Shown: in pieces, positions 38,804 to 47,122 of the stretch
How the letters are laid out: the number at the start of each line of letters is the position of its first letter
Position numbering within the stretch: position 1 is the first letter of the stretch
DNA from: Streptomyces sp. NBC_01314
GTDB lineage: Bacteria; Actinomycetota; Actinomycetes; Streptomycetales; Streptomycetaceae
Direction: 5' to 3'
DNA length: 64,000 nt
Assembly (NCBI RefSeq): GCF_041435215.1
Contig: NZ_CP108394.1
Location: forward strand, 7,130,001 to 7,194,000
Translations under genes and position numbers: made by a program
The notes under the pieces: model-generated
What the model was told of the DNA's origin: nothing
Seen by the model: only the letters and a program-made list of their open reading frames with translations
Database searches by the model: none

Positions 38804-40219
38804 GTGCAGCGTCCGCTCCTCTGGAAGGAACTCCTGGGCGACCGGGCGCCCGCTCTGCGCAGTACAGCGGCCATGCTCACCTCCCTCACCGCGCTCGCCG
38901 CGACCTCCCTGATCGCGGCCCCCTCCGCCGTGCCGCTGTCGGAGCCGTGCACGCTGCGACGCACCCAGGCACATCACTCGGAGGGTCTCGACACCTGGAA
39001 CTCCGCGTATCCACGCCCCACCCGCGACCTCGACGCCGTACTCGTATTCTTGTCATTCCCGGACGCGGCCCCTCTCACCACACCGGCCGAGCTGACCGCG
39101 GATCATTTTCCGGCCACCAGCGAGTTCTTCGAACGCGCCTCGTACGGCAAGTTCGCACTTCACCCCCATCCGGGACGTGAGTGGCTGGAGATGCCCCAGC
39201 CGTCGACGGCGTACGCCATACGGCGTGACTGGAACGCGTCGCACCGGGCCGCCTACCTCAGGGACGCGCTCGCCACGGCCGACCCGCACGTCGACTTCTC
39301 CCGGTACGACGTCGTGTACCTCGTCGCCGACCCGCACGCGCCCGGCGTCGACTCGGACGCGACGAAGGTGGTCAACCTCGAATCCCCGCTGGAGGTCGAC
39401 GGCACGGGCCTCCGCCGGGTGGTCACCGTGTTCGAGCGGCATCCACCGGACCGGCTCGTCCTCGCCCACGAGACGGGCCATGTCTTCGATCTCCCCGACC
39501 TCTACCACCGCCCCGTCGACGGCAAGGGCGACTGGGACACCCATGTCGGCGACTGGGACCTCATGGGCAGCCAGTTCGCCCTGGCCCCGGATCTGTTCGC
39601 CTGGCACAAGTGGAAGCTGGGCTGGCTGGAACCGCGCCAGGTGACGTGCGTACGGGGGGTGGGGGGCACCCGGTTGACGCTGGAGGCGGTGGGGGCGGGG
39701 CCACGGGGGGCGTACGAGGGGGAGACGGCGGAAGCCGAGATGGCCGAGATGGCCGAGATGGCCGAGATGGCCGAGACGGGCGAGACGGGCGAGACGGGCG
39801 AGGTCGGGGGTGGTGAGGCCGTCGGGCGTGCGGGTGAGGGCGCGGCGGTGGCCGGTGTCGGGGCGCGGGCCTTCGGGGCCGGACGGGGCAAGAAGCTGGC
39901 GGTCGTCCGTACGGGTTCCGACAGCGTGCTCGCGATCGAGGCGCGCGGCGCGGTCGGCAACGACGGTTCCGTCTGCACACAGGGCGTCCTCGTCTACCGC
40001 GTCCGCGGCGGCGCCGAGTCCGGCGGCGGCCCCATCGAGGTCCTCGACGCCCACCCGCGCACGGAGGCCTGCTGGGAGGAGTCCGTGTACCCGCCCCTCG
40101 CGGACGCGCCGGTGGGTGTGGGCGAGAGCTTCAAGGTGCCGGGGGAGGCCGTGGAGGTGGAGGTGGAGGGGCGTACGGCGACCGGCGCGTGGACGGTGCG
40201 GATCACGACGGGGCGGTAG
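38804..40219 (+). CDS. Secreted M6-type metalloprotease-like protein
   Basis: 471 aa. Signal peptide 1-40, protease domain about 75-290 with zinc site HETGH at 222-226 and a GDWDLMG Met-turn-like motif, C-terminal beta domain. The family includes InhA/PrtA-type enzymes that clot or degrade secreted proteins; this one lacks the long C-terminal part. An inserted Glu-Met-Ala and Glu-Thr-Gly repeat (9-base units, about 39738-39800) interrupts the beta domain. GGAGG 5 bases before the GTG. Confidence 0.82.
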   Translation: MQRPLLWKELLGDRAPALRSTAAMLTSLTALAATSLIAAPSAVPLSEPCTLRRTQAHHSEGLDTWNSAYPRPTRDLDAVLVFLSFPDAAPLTTPAELTADHFPATSEFFERASYGKFALHPHPGREWLEMPQPSTAYAIRRDWNASHRAAYLRDALATADPHVDFSRYDVVYLVADPHAPGVDSDATKVVNLESPLEVDGTGLRRVVTVFERHPPDRLVLAHETGHVFDLPDLYHRPVDGKGDWDTHVGDWDLMGSQFALAPDLFAWHKWKLGWLEPRQVTCVRGVGGTRLTLEAVGAGPRGAYEGETAEAEMAEMAEMAEMAETGETGETGEVGGGEAVGRAGEGAAVAGVGARAFGAGRGKKLAVVRTGSDSVLAIEARGAVGNDGSVCTQGVLVYRVRGGAESGGGPIEVLDAHPRTEACWEESVYPPLADAPVGVGESFKVPGEAVEVEVEGRTATGAWTVRITTGR

Positions 40220-41984: not shown

Positions 41985-43328
41985 CTAGGGCCGCCAACCC
42001 ACCCGGTGCTTCCCCAGCTCCGCCAGCACCGCGTGGTTCGCCTCCCAGCCGTCCGGGAACTTCACGGTCACCCCCAGCTGCACCGGCTCGATCGACGGAT
42101 GGTCGTCGAGCAGGTCGGTGACGCCCGCCCGGCACACCACGACGCAGGCGTGCCGGTGTCGGGAGGCGAGGACGCACAGCCGCCCGGTCTCCAGGTGGAA
42201 CGCCGTCGCGTCGGGGCGCCCGGACAGCGGGTGCAGGACGACCGTGACGTCGTACTCGCGCCCCTGGAGCCGGTTGGCCGTGTCCACGACCACGTCGCAG
42301 ACGCCCAGCTCGGTCAGCGCGGAGCGCACCGCTGCGGCCTGGTCGCGGTGGGCCGTGCCGACGGCGATCCGGTCGGCGGTCAGCGGCACGGGCTCCTCGG
42401 ACCGCTCCGAGGTCGCCGCCCCGCCCCGGTCGAGGAGTCGACGTACGACCAGGGCGACGGCCCGTACCGCCTCGGGATCGGTCCGTGGCGTGTGCCGGGC
42501 CGGCAGCTCCAGCAGCCCCCATCCCGACTCGGCCGCCTCGTCGATCACCCGGTCCGGACCGGAGCCGTCCGACGGCACCGCGAACCCGAGCCGCCGGTCC
42601 CCGTGCTCCGTACCGCTGCGGAAGGGGGTGAAGGGATAGAACGCGTCGGAGACCAGGGGCGCCGCCGACGCCGGGAGCCGCCAGGACACCGGCAGCCGGT
42701 GCTGGGGCAGCTCCGGGTTGTGGGCCAGCAAGGTGCTCACCGCCGAGGCCGACGGGTCGTAGGACAGCCCCGCCCACTGCTCGCTGCCCACGATCGCGAA
42801 CGGGTCCAGCTGCCCGGGATCACCCACGAACAGCGCCCGCTCGAACAGCCCCGCCACGGCCAGCAGCGCGTCCGACCGCATCTGGTACGCCTCGTCGACG
42901 ATCGCGTGCCGCCACGGCTCGACCCCGTTGACGTGCGCCCACTTCGCGGCCGTGGAGATCACGACGTCCAGCCCGGCCAGATCGGCCGCCTTCGTCGACT
43001 TCCGTACGTTCGCCAGATCGTCCAGTGCCTTGTCGTACGGGTCGCTGTCGCTGCTGTGCAGCCGGCCGACCGGGAGGTCCGGGTCCTTCTCGGCGAGCCG
43101 GATGACCAGGTCGTCGACCTGCGCGTTCGTCTGCGCGATGACCATCAGGGGCCGTCCGGCGGAGGCGAGTTCGAGCGCCGCGCGGACGACGAGCGTCGAC
43201 TTCCCGGCGCCGGGCGGCGAGTCGACGACGACACCGCGCGCGTCGCCGTGCAGCGTGTCGCGCAGGATCGCGTCGGTGGCCCGGCCGGCCGCCGCCCCGG
43301 GGTCGAGTACGGCCTCGGTGGGGGTCAC
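41985..43328 (-). CDS. SF1 (UPF1/Dna2-like) helicase
   Basis: 447 aa. Walker A SPPGAGKST (37-45), motif Ia AQTNAQVDD, Walker B VDEAYQM (DEAxQ, 143-149), motif III LFVGDPGQL, motif IV-like SWRLP, motif V ANRLQGREYDVTVVL and motif VI ASRHRHACVVV. Core motor of an SF1B-type DNA or RNA helicase without accessory domains. GTG overlaps the upstream TGA (GTGA) with GGAGGAT before it. Last gene of a three-gene operon with a nuclease; together they look like a split Dna2. Confidence 0.87.
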   Translation of the reverse strand: MTPTEAVLDPGAAAGRATDAILRDTLHGDARGVVVDSPPGAGKSTLVVRAALELASAGRPLMVIAQTNAQVDDLVIRLAEKDPDLPVGRLHSSDSDPYDKALDDLANVRKSTKAADLAGLDVVISTAAKWAHVNGVEPWRHAIVDEAYQMRSDALLAVAGLFERALFVGDPGQLDPFAIVGSEQWAGLSYDPSASAVSTLLAHNPELPQHRLPVSWRLPASAAPLVSDAFYPFTPFRSGTEHGDRRLGFAVPSDGSGPDRVIDEAAESGWGLLELPARHTPRTDPEAVRAVALVVRRLLDRGGAATSERSEEPVPLTADRIAVGTAHRDQAAAVRSALTELGVCDVVVDTANRLQGREYDVTVVLHPLSGRPDATAFHLETGRLCVLASRHRHACVVVCRAGVTDLLDDHPSIEPVQLGVTVKFPDGWEANHAVLAELGKHRVGWRP

Positions 43329-44956
43329 AGGACATCCTCCGCGGTCACCGGATCCGGCAGTGGTACGGCGTCGGGCTCACCCGGCGGCCCGCCGTGCGTC
43401 CACGGTGTCTCCTCGGGGTCCGGCAGCTTCGCCCCGCCCCGCTGGTCGTGCTCGAAGAGGGTGAAACAGAGCAGGTCCCCCTTCTCGGGGACCGACCCCA
43501 CCTCCGGCTCCTTGCCCCGCCCCATCTTGTCCATGATCCGCAGGACGAGGAGCCCGCCGTCGTGACCGCCGGTTCCGTCCTCCTCGTCCCCCTCGCTCCC
43601 CTCGTACCCCACGAACTCCGCCGCCTGCGGCTTCCCGCCCAGCGAGCGGTACACCTTCGCCCGCTCCCCGAGATGCGGCCGGTCCCGCGTCCGTACGGTG
43701 ACCAGGGGCCGTGGGCTGGGCCGCTTGCTCTCGCTGTAGGCCATGACGACGTCCGTGACCTCACCGGCGAACGCCTCCCCGGCCAGCCGTCGCCCGGCCA
43801 TGACGAGGGGGTCGTCCAGGGCCTCCTGGGCGTCGAGGCGGGCCTGTTCCCGCTCGCGCGCGGCCAGTTTGTTCGCGGCGGTGACCGCGTCGTCGATCCG
43901 GGGCTGTGGGGGCTCCCCGGCGACGATCCGGTCCCGGTGCCCGGTGAAGGACCAGCGGTCGCGGGTCCACCGGTCGGCCGCGTGGGCGCCCTCCGGCAGG
44001 GCGCGCAGCAGGTCGAGGCCGTGCCAGACCGCGTCCCACGTGGGCCGGGTGCGGCTCTCGACGAGGGCGTGGATCTCCCGCTCGGCGGCGGTCAGCGCAC
44101 CCAGCCGGTCGTCGGCCTCCAGACCGTCCTCGGCGGCGGCCAGGGCGAGCCGCGCCCGGTCGTACCGCTCGATGGCCGGGGCCAGCAGCTTGTTGTCGAA
44201 CGCCGGATCGGTCGCGGGCCCGGCGGGCGGCCACAGCAACTGGCCCCCGGCGTCCCGCGCCAGCTCGGCCCGCCGCGCCGCCGCCTCGCCCGGCTCCCCC
44301 TCCGGGGGGTCGATCCAGGCGAGCAGCGACGCCAGATGCTGGTCCTCCACCCCGGACTGCCCGGTCGCCCAGTGCCGCGACAACAGGTCGGTCAGCGCGA
44401 GCAGCAGCGAGGAGCCCGGCACCCGGGCCCGCTCCCCGAAGTGCGTGAGCCACCGCCCGAGCAACGGCACGCGTGGCGGCGCCGGATGGGGCGCCTCCGG
44501 GTCCTGCTCGGCGGTGCGCCGGAACCGCATGGAGCGCCCGAGGAGCCGTACGAAGTCGATGCCCGTCCGGCTCGGCAGGATCAACTGCGGCGCGTCCGCG
44601 CACAGTTCGACCTCCACCTTGACGCGCTTGCCGGTCTCCGGGTCGGTCTCGCTGCGCTCGGCCGCCTCCACGACGTCGGCGTACGAGTCCACGTACGGCA
44701 GCACGATGTCCGCCAGCTCGGCCAGGAACGCGAAGCGCAGGTCCCGGTCCCGGGGCTGGGGCACCACCAGCAGCCGGGGCGCGTCCCGGTCGGTGCCGAC
44801 GAGCGCGCCGAGCGGGGCCCCGGCCTCACCGGCGGTGGTGAGCGGCACGAGGACCAGGGGGCGGTCCGAGAGATGCCGGTGCAGGACGGTCGCGGCGGGC
44901 TGGGCGCGGCCTGTGCTGACGGCTTCGAGGCGGGCCAGGGTGGAGATCAGCGACAC
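43325..44956 (-). CDS. Operon linker protein between nuclease and helicase
   Basis: 543 aa, family not recognised. The N-terminal 300 residues are alpha/beta with LVLVPLTTAGEAGAPLG; a helical middle has EREIHALVESRTRPTWDAVW and a charged coiled stretch (about 385-410). The C-terminal 130 residues (PLVTVRTRDRPHLGERAKVY ... EKGDLLCFTL) look beta-rich, like the beta-barrel/stalk that precedes the motor in UPF1 and Dna2. It overlaps the nuclease by 10 bases and the helicase by 4, so all three are translated together, probably as a complex. GGAGGGG lies before the GTG. Confidence 0.75.
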   Translation of the reverse strand: MSLISTLARLEAVSTGRAQPAATVLHRHLSDRPLVLVPLTTAGEAGAPLGALVGTDRDAPRLLVVPQPRDRDLRFAFLAELADIVLPYVDSYADVVEAAERSETDPETGKRVKVEVELCADAPQLILPSRTGIDFVRLLGRSMRFRRTAEQDPEAPHPAPPRVPLLGRWLTHFGERARVPGSSLLLALTDLLSRHWATGQSGVEDQHLASLLAWIDPPEGEPGEAAARRAELARDAGGQLLWPPAGPATDPAFDNKLLAPAIERYDRARLALAAAEDGLEADDRLGALTAAEREIHALVESRTRPTWDAVWHGLDLLRALPEGAHAADRWTRDRWSFTGHRDRIVAGEPPQPRIDDAVTAANKLAAREREQARLDAQEALDDPLVMAGRRLAGEAFAGEVTDVVMAYSESKRPSPRPLVTVRTRDRPHLGERAKVYRSLGGKPQAAEFVGYEGSEGDEEDGTGGHDGGLLVLRIMDKMGRGKEPEVGSVPEKGDLLCFTLFEHDQRGGAKLPDPEETPWTHGGPPGEPDAVPLPDPVTAEDVL

Positions 44957-46182
44957 GGAACCCCCTCCGGGGCCGAACCGGTGAGGGCGGTGGCTACCGG
45001 GCGCTCGGCAGGGACTCCCAACGCCTCCGCCCGCAGCTCCGCCGCCCTGCGCAGCGCGGCCACGGCGGGGTCGTCCGGGTCGCCGGCCCTGCCGTGGGCC
45101 GCCGCCAGGACGTCGTCGACCGTAGTGAGGCCGCCCAGCTCGGCGCGCGTGGCCCGGCCCAGGGAGGTCACCGCGCCCTCCGTGCGGGAGCGGGCCCGGC
45201 AGTGGAAGGCCAGCTCGCAGGCGGCGAGGCACTCGGGGGCGTAGGAGGCGGACAGTGCCTCGACGGCCGTCGTCAGCTGCTCCTGGGGGAGGTCGGTGGC
45301 GAAGCAGGTGCCCTCGGGGAGGGTGTCCGCGATCTCCTCGATGCGGGTCAGCCGCGTCAACTGGCGGCGTGTGACCGCCCGTTGCTTGCGAACGTCCACC
45401 GCGGCGGCCGTCGGGAGGTTGGTGAAGTCCTTGGGGCAGACCAGCAGCACCCGGTGACGCACCTCGGGGGTGGGGGCGCCCTCGCGGGCGTCGCCGCCGA
45501 GGCGGGCTGCGACCTCCTCCAGCGCCAGCACGTACACCGCGGACTGGCGGGCCGCCGCGCCCACCTTCGCCGGGTCCGCCGAACCGTCCAGCATCGGGAA
45601 GGACTTGATCTCGACGACCGACCAGGTGCCGTCCGGGTGGACCACCACCGCGTCCGGTTCCAGGAACGCGGGGGTGCCCGCGACGTCGAGCGCGAGCATG
45701 GGGTGGTCGAGCAGCGCCCAGCCGCCGGCGTCCGTGGCGTCGCGCAACGCCAGTGCCGTACGGGCGGCGCGGCCCTCGGGGCCCACGGCGGTGAGGTCGG
45801 GGACCTTGGCGGAGGTCGGTGGCTCGGCGCCGGGGTCCAGTCTCTCGTGCACCAGCCGCAGCAGCTCCGCGCCGCCGTCCGCCTTGACCTTGGCCTCGAA
45901 GGCGTTGCCCCGCATGAAGGCGAACTGGGACTGGCCGAAGGCGGAGGGCGAGCCGAGCGCGTCCGCCAGCACCGCCTTGTTCACGCCCGCGCCGTCCAGC
46001 AGCGCGCGGCGCTCACAGCCCGGGTTGGCCGCGAGCGCGGCGAGGGCGCGCGCGTCCAGCGCCTTGGGTGGGACCTCGGGGCCGCGCAGCTCAGCGAGCC
46101 GCTGCCGCAGCGCCGTCCCCTGCTTGCGAGGGGGCGGCACCCGGCTCGGGTTCGATGATCCGCTGCCGTGGAATTCGCTCAC
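44947..46182 (-). CDS. RecB/Cas4-like PD-(D/E)XK nuclease with predicted Fe-S cluster
   Basis: 411 aa. Nuclease core: Asp177 in EPDAVVV, Glu191 and Lys193 in VVEIKSF, and QxxxY as Q213-Y217 in ARQSAVYVLAL. Four Cys are placed as in Cas4/AddB/Dna2 Fe-S nucleases: Cys56 near the N-terminus and Cys318, Cys322, Cys328 (ECLAACELAFHC, CxxxC-x5-C) at the C-terminus. Predicted ssDNA exo/endonuclease. Start uncertain: GTG at 46182 used; GTG at 46140 (MPPPRKQG) is an alternative. Neither has a good ribosome site, and both overlap the PAP2 gene end. Confidence 0.82.
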   Translation of the reverse strand: MSEFHGSGSSNPSRVPPPRKQGTALRQRLAELRGPEVPPKALDARALAALAANPGCERRALLDGAGVNKAVLADALGSPSAFGQSQFAFMRGNAFEAKVKADGGAELLRLVHERLDPGAEPPTSAKVPDLTAVGPEGRAARTALALRDATDAGGWALLDHPMLALDVAGTPAFLEPDAVVVHPDGTWSVVEIKSFPMLDGSADPAKVGAAARQSAVYVLALEEVAARLGGDAREGAPTPEVRHRVLLVCPKDFTNLPTAAAVDVRKQRAVTRRQLTRLTRIEEIADTLPEGTCFATDLPQEQLTTAVEALSASYAPECLAACELAFHCRARSRTEGAVTSLGRATRAELGGLTTVDDVLAAAHGRAGDPDDPAVAALRRAAELRAEALGVPAERPVATALTGSAPEGVPCR

Positions 46183-47122
46183 CCGGGGAAGTCTGGCATC
46201 CACCACTGACAATGGGGGAAATTGAGCCCCGAGAGGCGGCCGTGGCTGGAACGACGGGCTCCTCACCGTGCGGTCGGTCACCGCCGTCGAACCGGCCCGC
46301 GGTCATCGTCCGCAGGCCGAGCGCCGTCCGGCACCGGTCCGCGGTCCGCAGCACCAGCGGTGTCAGCAGCAGGCCCGCCCCCATCACGGCGGCGCCCGCC
46401 ACCGCGTCGAGGAAGTAGTGGTTCGCGGTGCCCATCACCACGATCGTGGTGATCAGCGGGTACGCGACGGCGGCGGTCCGCACGAGCCGCGAGCCGCCGC
46501 CGAAGCGCCAGAGGATCACACCGCACCACAGGGCCCAGCCGACGTGCAGGCTCGGCATCGCCGCGTACTGGTTCGTCATGCCGCCCAGGCCCCGGGGCGC
46601 GCTGGCCTCGCCGCCCCACCAGCCCCACGAGCTGTAGTAGGCCATGGTGTCGACGAATCCGTGGGACGGGTCGAGCAGCCGGGGCGGGCAGGTGGGGAGC
46701 AGGGTGAAGCCGACAAGGCCGATGAAGGTGGAGGTCAGCAGCCAGGTGCGGGCCGCGCGATAGCGCACGGTACGGGACCTGAAGAGCCATATCAGGAGCG
46801 CGGGCGTGACCAGGTAGTGCAGTGACGCGTACCAGAAGTCGGCGGGTATCCCGATCCAGGGCTCACGGGTGAACAGGCGGTTCAGCGGATGCTCGGCGTT
46901 GAGCCACAGGGCCTTCTCGATCCGCAGGAGCTCCAGGCCGTGGTCGACGGCGTGGGCGGTGTCGCCGCGGGCGAGCAGCCGCCCGGCCGAGTACGCCCCG
47001 TACACCAGCAGGATCAGCGGCAGTTCGGTCCACCAGCGGAGCCGCGCGTTCGGCGCCCCCTCGGTAACCGGTGCGCCGGTCCTTCTGGTAACCGGTGCTT
47101 CGGTCGCCTCGGTCTGCGACAT
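46091..47122 (-). CDS. PAP2-family membrane phosphatase (AUR1-like)
   Basis: 343 aa, about six membrane helices. PAP2 motifs: MPSLHVGWALW (motif 2, as PSxH) and TANHYFLDAVAG (motif 3, HxxxD). Likely dephosphorylates a lipid phosphate or transfers a head group. ATG at 47122 chosen because GGAGG lies 8 bases upstream; an ATG at 47140 is less well placed. The polar C-terminal 60 residues overlap the following nuclease gene by 92 bases. Confidence 0.85.
   Translation of the reverse strand: MSQTEATEAPVTRRTGAPVTEGAPNARLRWWTELPLILLVYGAYSAGRLLARGDTAHAVDHGLELLRIEKALWLNAEHPLNRLFTREPWIGIPADFWYASLHYLVTPALLIWLFRSRTVRYRAARTWLLTSTFIGLVGFTLLPTCPPRLLDPSHGFVDTMAYYSSWGWWGGEASAPRGLGGMTNQYAAMPSLHVGWALWCGVILWRFGGGSRLVRTAAVAYPLITTIVVMGTANHYFLDAVAGAAVMGAGLLLTPLVLRTADRCRTALGLRTMTAGRFDGGDRPHGEEPVVPATAASRGSISPIVSGGCQTSPGERIPRQRIIEPEPGAAPSQAGDGAAAAAR

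Follow-up and report, generated by a model that had tools for sequence, protein, structure and literature searches.

A three-gene operon of Streptomyces proposed to encode a split Dna2-like helicase-nuclease

The stretch of 64,000 nucleotides analysed here, hereafter the window, is part of the 11.3 Mb chromosome of Streptomyces sp. NBC_01314 (genome G000; contig NZ_CP108394.1, positions 7,130,001 to 7,194,000), and it contains on its minus strand three consecutive genes for a nuclease (NUC), a middle protein of no known family (MID) and a helicase (HEL). We propose, with a probability of about 0.7, that this operon encodes a single three-subunit helicase-nuclease that works in the manner of Dna2 and of the bacterial enzyme Bad. 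The proposal draws, from sequence and computation, upon the order and co-conservation of the genes, the fold and residues of the nuclease, the family of the motor, natural gene fusions, and a promoter motif together with the set of genes that share it. The NUC gene (411 amino acids, aa; 44947..46182, read from 46182 to 44947) overlaps that for MID (543 aa; 43325..44956, read from 44956 to 43325) by 10 bases (44947..44956), and the latter overlaps the HEL gene (447 aa; 41985..43328, read from 43328 to 41985) by 4 bases (43325..43328). The coordinates of the open reading frames (ORFs) thus agree with an initial annotation of this DNA, which had reported the three overlapping genes. Its further claim that the overlaps imply a fixed stoichiometry over-reads them, as overlaps of 10 and 4 bases suggest translational coupling only.

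The conservation of this arrangement, a survey of which had been recommended in the initial annotation, was assessed in 137 loci (window included), all of which were selected for holding MID and 80 of which are from close Streptomyces relatives. The MID protein of the window shares 95% identity with its counterparts in S. brasiliscabiei and S. griseiscabiei, and the trio is also present in S. violaceoruber (L059). The genes were found to stay together: in 130 of the 137 loci all three are present in the same order on one strand, and because so many loci retain this order, the arrangement is not due to chance. In 125 of these 130 the gaps are shorter than 600 bases, and the modal spacings, as measured from start codons chosen by a script, are –10 between NUC and MID (78 loci) and –4 between MID and HEL (86 loci), the same as in the window. 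The seven other loci consist of four at contig ends, one (L024) in which no NUC was seen and MID is frameshifted, and two from one genus where HEL lies 36–49 kb away. In the latter two (L152 and L157, genomes G504 and G243) the operon is therefore split by a large insertion or rearrangement. The distances within the three protein families are also strongly correlated (Mantel r of 0.89–0.91 for 53 loci, reached in 0 of 999 permutations), a value to which the shared history of the species contributes, and the ratio of nonsynonymous to synonymous substitution rates (dN/dS) was 0.09–0.35 in four species pairs.

Natural fusions are found of both neighbouring pairs, in each case in the order of the operon. 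Five proteins of 930–936 aa (P0241–P0245) join MID to HEL, and three others (P0171, P0172, and P0246) join NUC to MID. These fusions bear out the earlier observation that the genes follow the N-to-C order of the nuclease, barrel and motor domains of Dna2. In P0242, the match to MID ends at residue 488 and that to HEL starts at 503, which places the barrel of MID (described below) directly ahead of motif I of the motor. A triple NUC-MID-HEL fusion was not present among the nine matches from the fusion search, of which P0239 and P0240 were excluded from the above as possible frameshift joins and P0238 gave a match to MID only. In addition to these fusions, plasmids of Rhodococcus and Mycobacterium encode a protein of 390–404 aa followed by a HEL-like protein. 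The former matches the MID profile (P 94.8, E 5e-8, 252 columns, positions 150–494 of 559) and a protein of this kind is present on 45 plasmid records, whereas NUC was absent by tblastn in the three plasmid loci examined. Because MID and HEL persist on these plasmids without NUC, they form the tighter pair. The plasmid module as a whole (L216:4074-9176, L217:3749-9146, and L218:4019-9125) consists of genes for a MoxR/AAA ATPase, a VWA protein, a small ORF, the MID-like protein and the HEL-like helicase.

The identification of NUC as a Cas4/RecB-like iron-sulfur nuclease in the initial annotation is supported by its residues and by its predicted fold. The protein contains four cysteines (C56, C318, C322, and C328), one located before the nuclease core and three after it. 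They are invariant in an alignment of 14 rows and all four are present in 134 of 136 rows, the other two being one row with an X and one that is truncated. The residues D177, E191, and K193, and the segment 213–217, which we take to be the catalytic PD-(D/E)XK and QxxxY motifs, respectively, are present in the window copy. The ExK element is intact in 129 of the 136 rows, altered in L013, L144, L145, L166, P0171, and P0172, and unreadable in the truncated L054. In structural comparisons using VIA-align most of the top rows were Cas4, EXO5, RecE, AdnA, MGME1, RecB, AddB, and Dna2, and the E-values by Foldseek were weak (best 0.013). NUC gave no match in Pfam, NCBIfam or PADLOC at E ≤ 10, its profile found only spurious matches among solved structures, and its relatives were not found in phage records. 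The four cysteines, the two motifs and the fold together support the assignment of NUC as a RecB/Cas4-type iron-staple nuclease.

HEL is a minimal superfamily 1 (SF1) helicase core of the UPF1/Dna2 type, as had been proposed initially. It matches the AAA_11 and AAA_12 families (PF13086 and PF13087) above their cut-offs, its best matches among solved structures are SMUBP-2 and DNA2, and what we take to be the SF1 motor motifs are conserved across 15 rows. In UPF1-like helicases, a stalk and a 1B barrel precede motif I. The Walker A lysine of HEL is residue 43, so that only 42 residues lie ahead of it, in comparison to about 200 in SMUBP-2 by alignment, and the alignment of HEL starts at residue 206 of the SMUBP-2 chain (the best match) and at about residue 641 of the DNA2 chain. 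Due to this short N-terminus HEL has no space for the stalk and 1B, and these elements, expected in the same chain for SF1B helicases of the UPF1/Dna2 type, are not found in it. In three other loci (L002, L008, and L021) a second copy of the C-terminal ~22 residues of HEL is encoded immediately after the gene in a different frame, a relic of a tandem duplication.

The MID protein may supply the part that HEL lacks. Its length, the strands of its model and the empty family searches (no match in Pfam, NCBIfam or PADLOC at E ≤ 10) all agree with the initial description of a 543-aa protein of no recognised family with a beta-rich C-terminus. The predicted model is a confident one (predicted local distance difference test, pLDDT, 87.1; predicted template modelling score, pTM, 0.85), with C-terminal strands between residues 395 and 499. 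Residues 345–507 (43436..43924) form a stalk-like helix followed by a beta-barrel, for which the VIA-align rows are headed by the 1B domain of senataxin (SETX/Sen1), with FNR-type barrels scoring nearly as high. An unrelated fold of the middle protein, which had been named at the outset as an outcome that would count against a Dna2-like arrangement, thus did not emerge. Residues 1–344 (43925..44956) comprise an alpha/beta front domain and a helical region, and this half weakly resembles, at the level of fold, the exonuclease domain of B-family polymerases; it is apparently an inactive exonuclease-like domain. Both resemblances come from VIA-align only, as Foldseek gave no row below E 0.03, and a comparison of MID with the sequences of solved structures gave nothing relevant. 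The earlier reading that this protein stands in the place of the Dna2 barrel fits the 1B-like barrel, but the term linker understates a protein whose front half weakly resembles an exonuclease fold. We propose that the stalk-like helix and barrel of MID would serve as the stalk and 1B domain of HEL in trans.

A promoter motif upstream of the operon points to its regulation. The sequence TTGTCAGTG-N8-CAGACT (46190..46212, minus strand) starts exactly 30 bases before the start codon of NUC in a leaderless arrangement, and it is the sole match in the window, where 0.01 are expected. It corresponds to the RecA-NDp (PafBC-type) promoter, whose consensus is given in the part of PMC5656591 available to us as tTGTCRgtg-8 nt-TannnT, although the first –10 base at NUC is a C rather than the consensus T. 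Of 92 Streptomyces core loci, 78 contain the full motif (with YAnnnT) and 87 its core TTGTCRGT. Relative to the start codons that we assigned, 82 of these 87 core matches start at –30, and for 86 of the 87 a start codon follows at a distance of exactly 30 bases. Among the same 87 matches, 21 variants of the 8-base spacer were counted. In all scanned loci, 81 full matches were found (4.57 Mb counted over both strands), and the motif was present in 0 of 41 loci from the other MID clusters.

The motif at NUC, close to the start of the gene, agrees with the published pattern of this regulon. In the G000 genome a slightly looser pattern gave 78 sites, in comparison to one for the reversed pattern. 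Eight of the 78 have one and the same sequence, apparently that of a repeated element, and two other pairs are repeats located towards the two ends of the chromosome. We inspected 66 of the sites (30 loci and 36 stretches), for which a script gave 67 ORFs downstream, counting repeats, and 20 of these, picked by eye, were scanned. The first ten all function in replication or repair, viz. recA, ruvC, uvrB, dinB (Pol IV), ung, ligA, priA, dnaX, holA, and a RarA-type AAA protein, the last of which scored below the curated cut-offs. Of the second ten, seven are nucleic-acid enzymes, including MGMT, an Lhr-type protein and the delta-prime subunit gene holB; the DUF6891 and NADAR proteins are not clearly of this kind and one had no match. 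Judged by its sequence, the G000 genome carries a regulon of the RecA-NDp/PafBC type to which many genes for repair and replication belong. A review, in its available portion, extends such promoters beyond mycobacteria (PMC8223512), and in S. coelicolor they are reported ahead of recA and the ultraviolet-inducible SCO6735 (PMC5087735, partial text). These observations disagree with a remark in the accessible text of PMC9380542 that, in an initial motif search, the motif was not conserved in S. venezuelae. The Streptomyces trio operon is probably transcribed from its RecA-NDp (PafBC-type) promoter after DNA damage.

MID was detected in 24 of 24 other genomes of the same genus in one sample (one match being partial and one split) and in 38 of 39 listed in a second, in comparison to 70 among 394 genomes sampled from the class and 11 among 296 sampled from the phylum. 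Of 296 genomes of the class, 99 contain the fused TM0106 family (TIGR03491), which is of related plan, at a score above its cut-off. No listed genome of the genus was among these, three having weak partial matches, and only two MID-positive genomes of the class (G089 and G557) also contain TM0106 above its cut-off (394 genomes searched for MID, 296 for TM0106). Replacement of one family by the other is only hinted at, since the pattern is confounded by relatedness and drawn from two samples of unequal size. One relative of MID (P0154) lies in a small contig of a metagenome-assembled genome of the gammaproteobacterium Candidatus Thiodiazotropha taylori, which may be misbinned. No relative of P0154 was found in phage records, and none of MID in viral contigs.

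The MID sequences form six clusters at 50% distance, and outside the Streptomyces core some of the loci have different neighbours. We treat clusters 1, 2, and 6 as an accessory set of 11 loci. Two of these, which we added to the set, lie on Streptomyces plasmids; L219 and L220 were outside the clustering and their placement in cluster 2 is our own assignment. In this set the trio adjoins SbcD in all 11 loci, SbcC in 10 and Wadjet genes in six, including a complete Wadjet type I set (JetABCD) in L219 and, in L172, an assignment that consists of a single weak match to DUF2397. SbcCD or Wadjet genes are beside the trio in 0 of 95 Streptomyces core loci and 0 of 29 cluster-5 loci. All 11 accessory loci also contain, upstream of NUC, a member of a family of ~255–330 aa that we refer to as F3, which occupies this place in 26 loci outside the Streptomyces core (e.g. 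L170:10079-10963, L176:5377-6174, and L219:8455-9300) and gave no Pfam match above the cut-off for the three proteins tested. Some of the partners appear damaged: L016 has a short SbcD and lacks SbcC, in L220 both are in pieces, and the linked SbcD gene of G551 is interrupted by a stop. Of nine genomes with accessory loci that were searched, eight hold a second, weaker match to SbcD elsewhere (in three only in pieces or partial) and one (G037) has none, which indicates that the linked SbcCD pair is mostly an extra copy; in G000 the only match to SbcD is a weak one. In cluster 1 loci (L171:9910-12150, L170:3794-6043, and L169) HEL is followed by a DEAD helicase with helicase-associated (HA) domains. 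We tentatively raise the possibility, itself somewhat doubtful, that SbcC-SbcD, F3 and NUC-MID-HEL move as one six-gene unit, a bacterial equivalent of the resection team that Mre11-Rad50 and Dna2 form in eukaryotes. Often together with Wadjet, this unit would destroy DNA ends made by Wadjet or another cutter, the Streptomyces core operon being its domesticated repair form.

In the mechanism that we favour for the core operon, NUC would be the iron-sulfur cutting subunit and HEL the SF1B motor core, with MID acting as a scaffold between them whose stalk and 1B barrel attach to HEL and whose front half holds NUC. The operon would be induced by DNA damage together with recA, ruvC, uvrB, dinB, and priA. 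The physical complex may load on a single-stranded 5' end, with HEL translocating 5' to 3' on single-stranded DNA, as is described for Bad in the available part of PMC7430649, while NUC would cleave flaps or single-stranded DNA where ends are broken or forks have stalled. The trio would be accessory to the main nuclease AdnAB after damage.

A different role for MID is the most probable of the alternatives. It may be a general scaffold or loading factor whose barrel binds DNA on its own account and is not a 1B/stalk, HEL then being a minimal translocase without 1B. The near-equal scores of FNR-type barrels and Sen1 1B fit this possibility, as does the failure to find a sequence-profile link between MID and the fused TM0106 proteins. 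We nevertheless regard it as rather unlikely, because the barrel rows are headed by senataxin 1B, the pair that persists without NUC is MID-HEL, and in the fusions such as P0242 the barrel directly precedes motif I, the place of the stalk and 1B in UPF1-like helicases. That the three genes have separate functions and merely have one damage-inducible promoter in common is very improbable: the genus in which HEL lies 36–49 kb from NUC-MID in two genomes speaks for it, but the fusions of both neighbouring pairs, the correlated divergence and the conserved overlaps argue against it.

The initial annotation had also offered action against phage as a function, and on this account the operon would mainly degrade foreign phage or plasmid DNA, its Streptomyces core copy being a domesticated or constitutive defence module. 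The association of the accessory copies with SbcCD and Wadjet, two of them on plasmids, makes a defence role more plausible for these mobile relatives than for the core copy. The latter has no such neighbours, NUC and MID match no PADLOC family, and because the core copy is near-universal in Streptomyces and lies under a DNA-damage promoter motif, a phage-defence role for the window copy is set aside; as a general explanation of the operon we consider defence improbable. Under the preferred reading of a Dna2-like enzyme, a near-universal three-part form with an apparent damage promoter makes the role of bacterial Dna2-like enzymes testable by simple deletions in a laboratory Streptomyces. The split form would also let motor, 1B-like barrel and nuclease be mixed or omitted one by one, and the SbcCD- and Wadjet-linked relatives suggest that the Mre11-Rad50 plus Dna2 partnership has a bacterial parallel. 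Elsewhere in the window, a 471-aa ORF on the plus strand (38804-40219) was noted by eye to have an internal run of EMA/GET repeats and a metalloprotease-like HETGH motif.

Several known helicase-nucleases resemble the trio in part. AdnAB and AddAB are likewise multi-subunit bacterial enzymes with a RecB-type nuclease, and NUC resembles AdnA and AddB. The AdnAB motor is UvrD-like, whereas HEL is of the UPF1/Dna2 type, and AdnAB is a separate enzyme that is also present in Streptomyces. It is described as the main helicase-nuclease of this genus in the available portion of PMC5869714. UvrD-Cas4 proteins, fused or encoded adjacently, similarly tie a Cas4-like nuclease to an SF1 helicase; this is of the UvrD type with 3'-5' polarity, and the part of PMC5704561 at hand mentions no MID-like subunit.

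The closest parallels are the Dna2-like enzymes, the characterised members of which are single chains, the role of the bacterial relatives being unknown according to the accessible text of PMC7430649. Bad of Geobacillus stearothermophilus (WP_053413574), a rare and sporadic protein of 1245 aa, has like the trio a four-cysteine iron-sulfur nuclease first, a conserved central region second and an SF1B motor last. The central domain is called unknown in that partial source, and absent from eukaryotic DNA2. Nuclease and helicase reside in one polypeptide in Dna2 and Bad, but the trio consists of three genes (with pairwise fusions elsewhere) that are near-universal in one genus, and it differs further from eukaryotic Dna2 by the extra exonuclease-like front half of MID. 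The TM0106 proteins also contain a nuclease, a middle domain and a UPF1-like helicase in the same order within one chain, and a D-x-E-G motif is present in the middle part of 12 of the 15 that were read. They may correspond to what the available part of PMC7430649 calls a "second class" of DNA2-like proteins, which it places in Mycobacteria and Rhodococcus. TM0106 matches the HEL profile strongly (P 99.5, E 8e-23) and the cysteine tail of NUC weakly (P 21.7). MID was considered as a piece of a TM0106 fusion and this was rejected, as the profile-profile comparison gave no match; the plan common to both is thus one of gene order and rough fold only. G000 has no match to TIGR03491 above its cut-off. 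The initial annotation had held the trio to be undescribed as a system. This stands for the split form, no description of which was found in searches of the open-access literature (where subscription journals are mostly absent), but the architecture has precedents in the fused Dna2-like enzymes that have been published (Bad; PMC7430649, partial text) or curated (TIGR03491). The trio is not a member of Dna2, Bad or TIGR03491 and follows their known plan in a split form; what those searches did not show is a split version in three genes that is near-universal and linked to damage, and whose 1B-like barrel lies in a separate subunit, or its SbcCD- and Wadjet-linked sisters.
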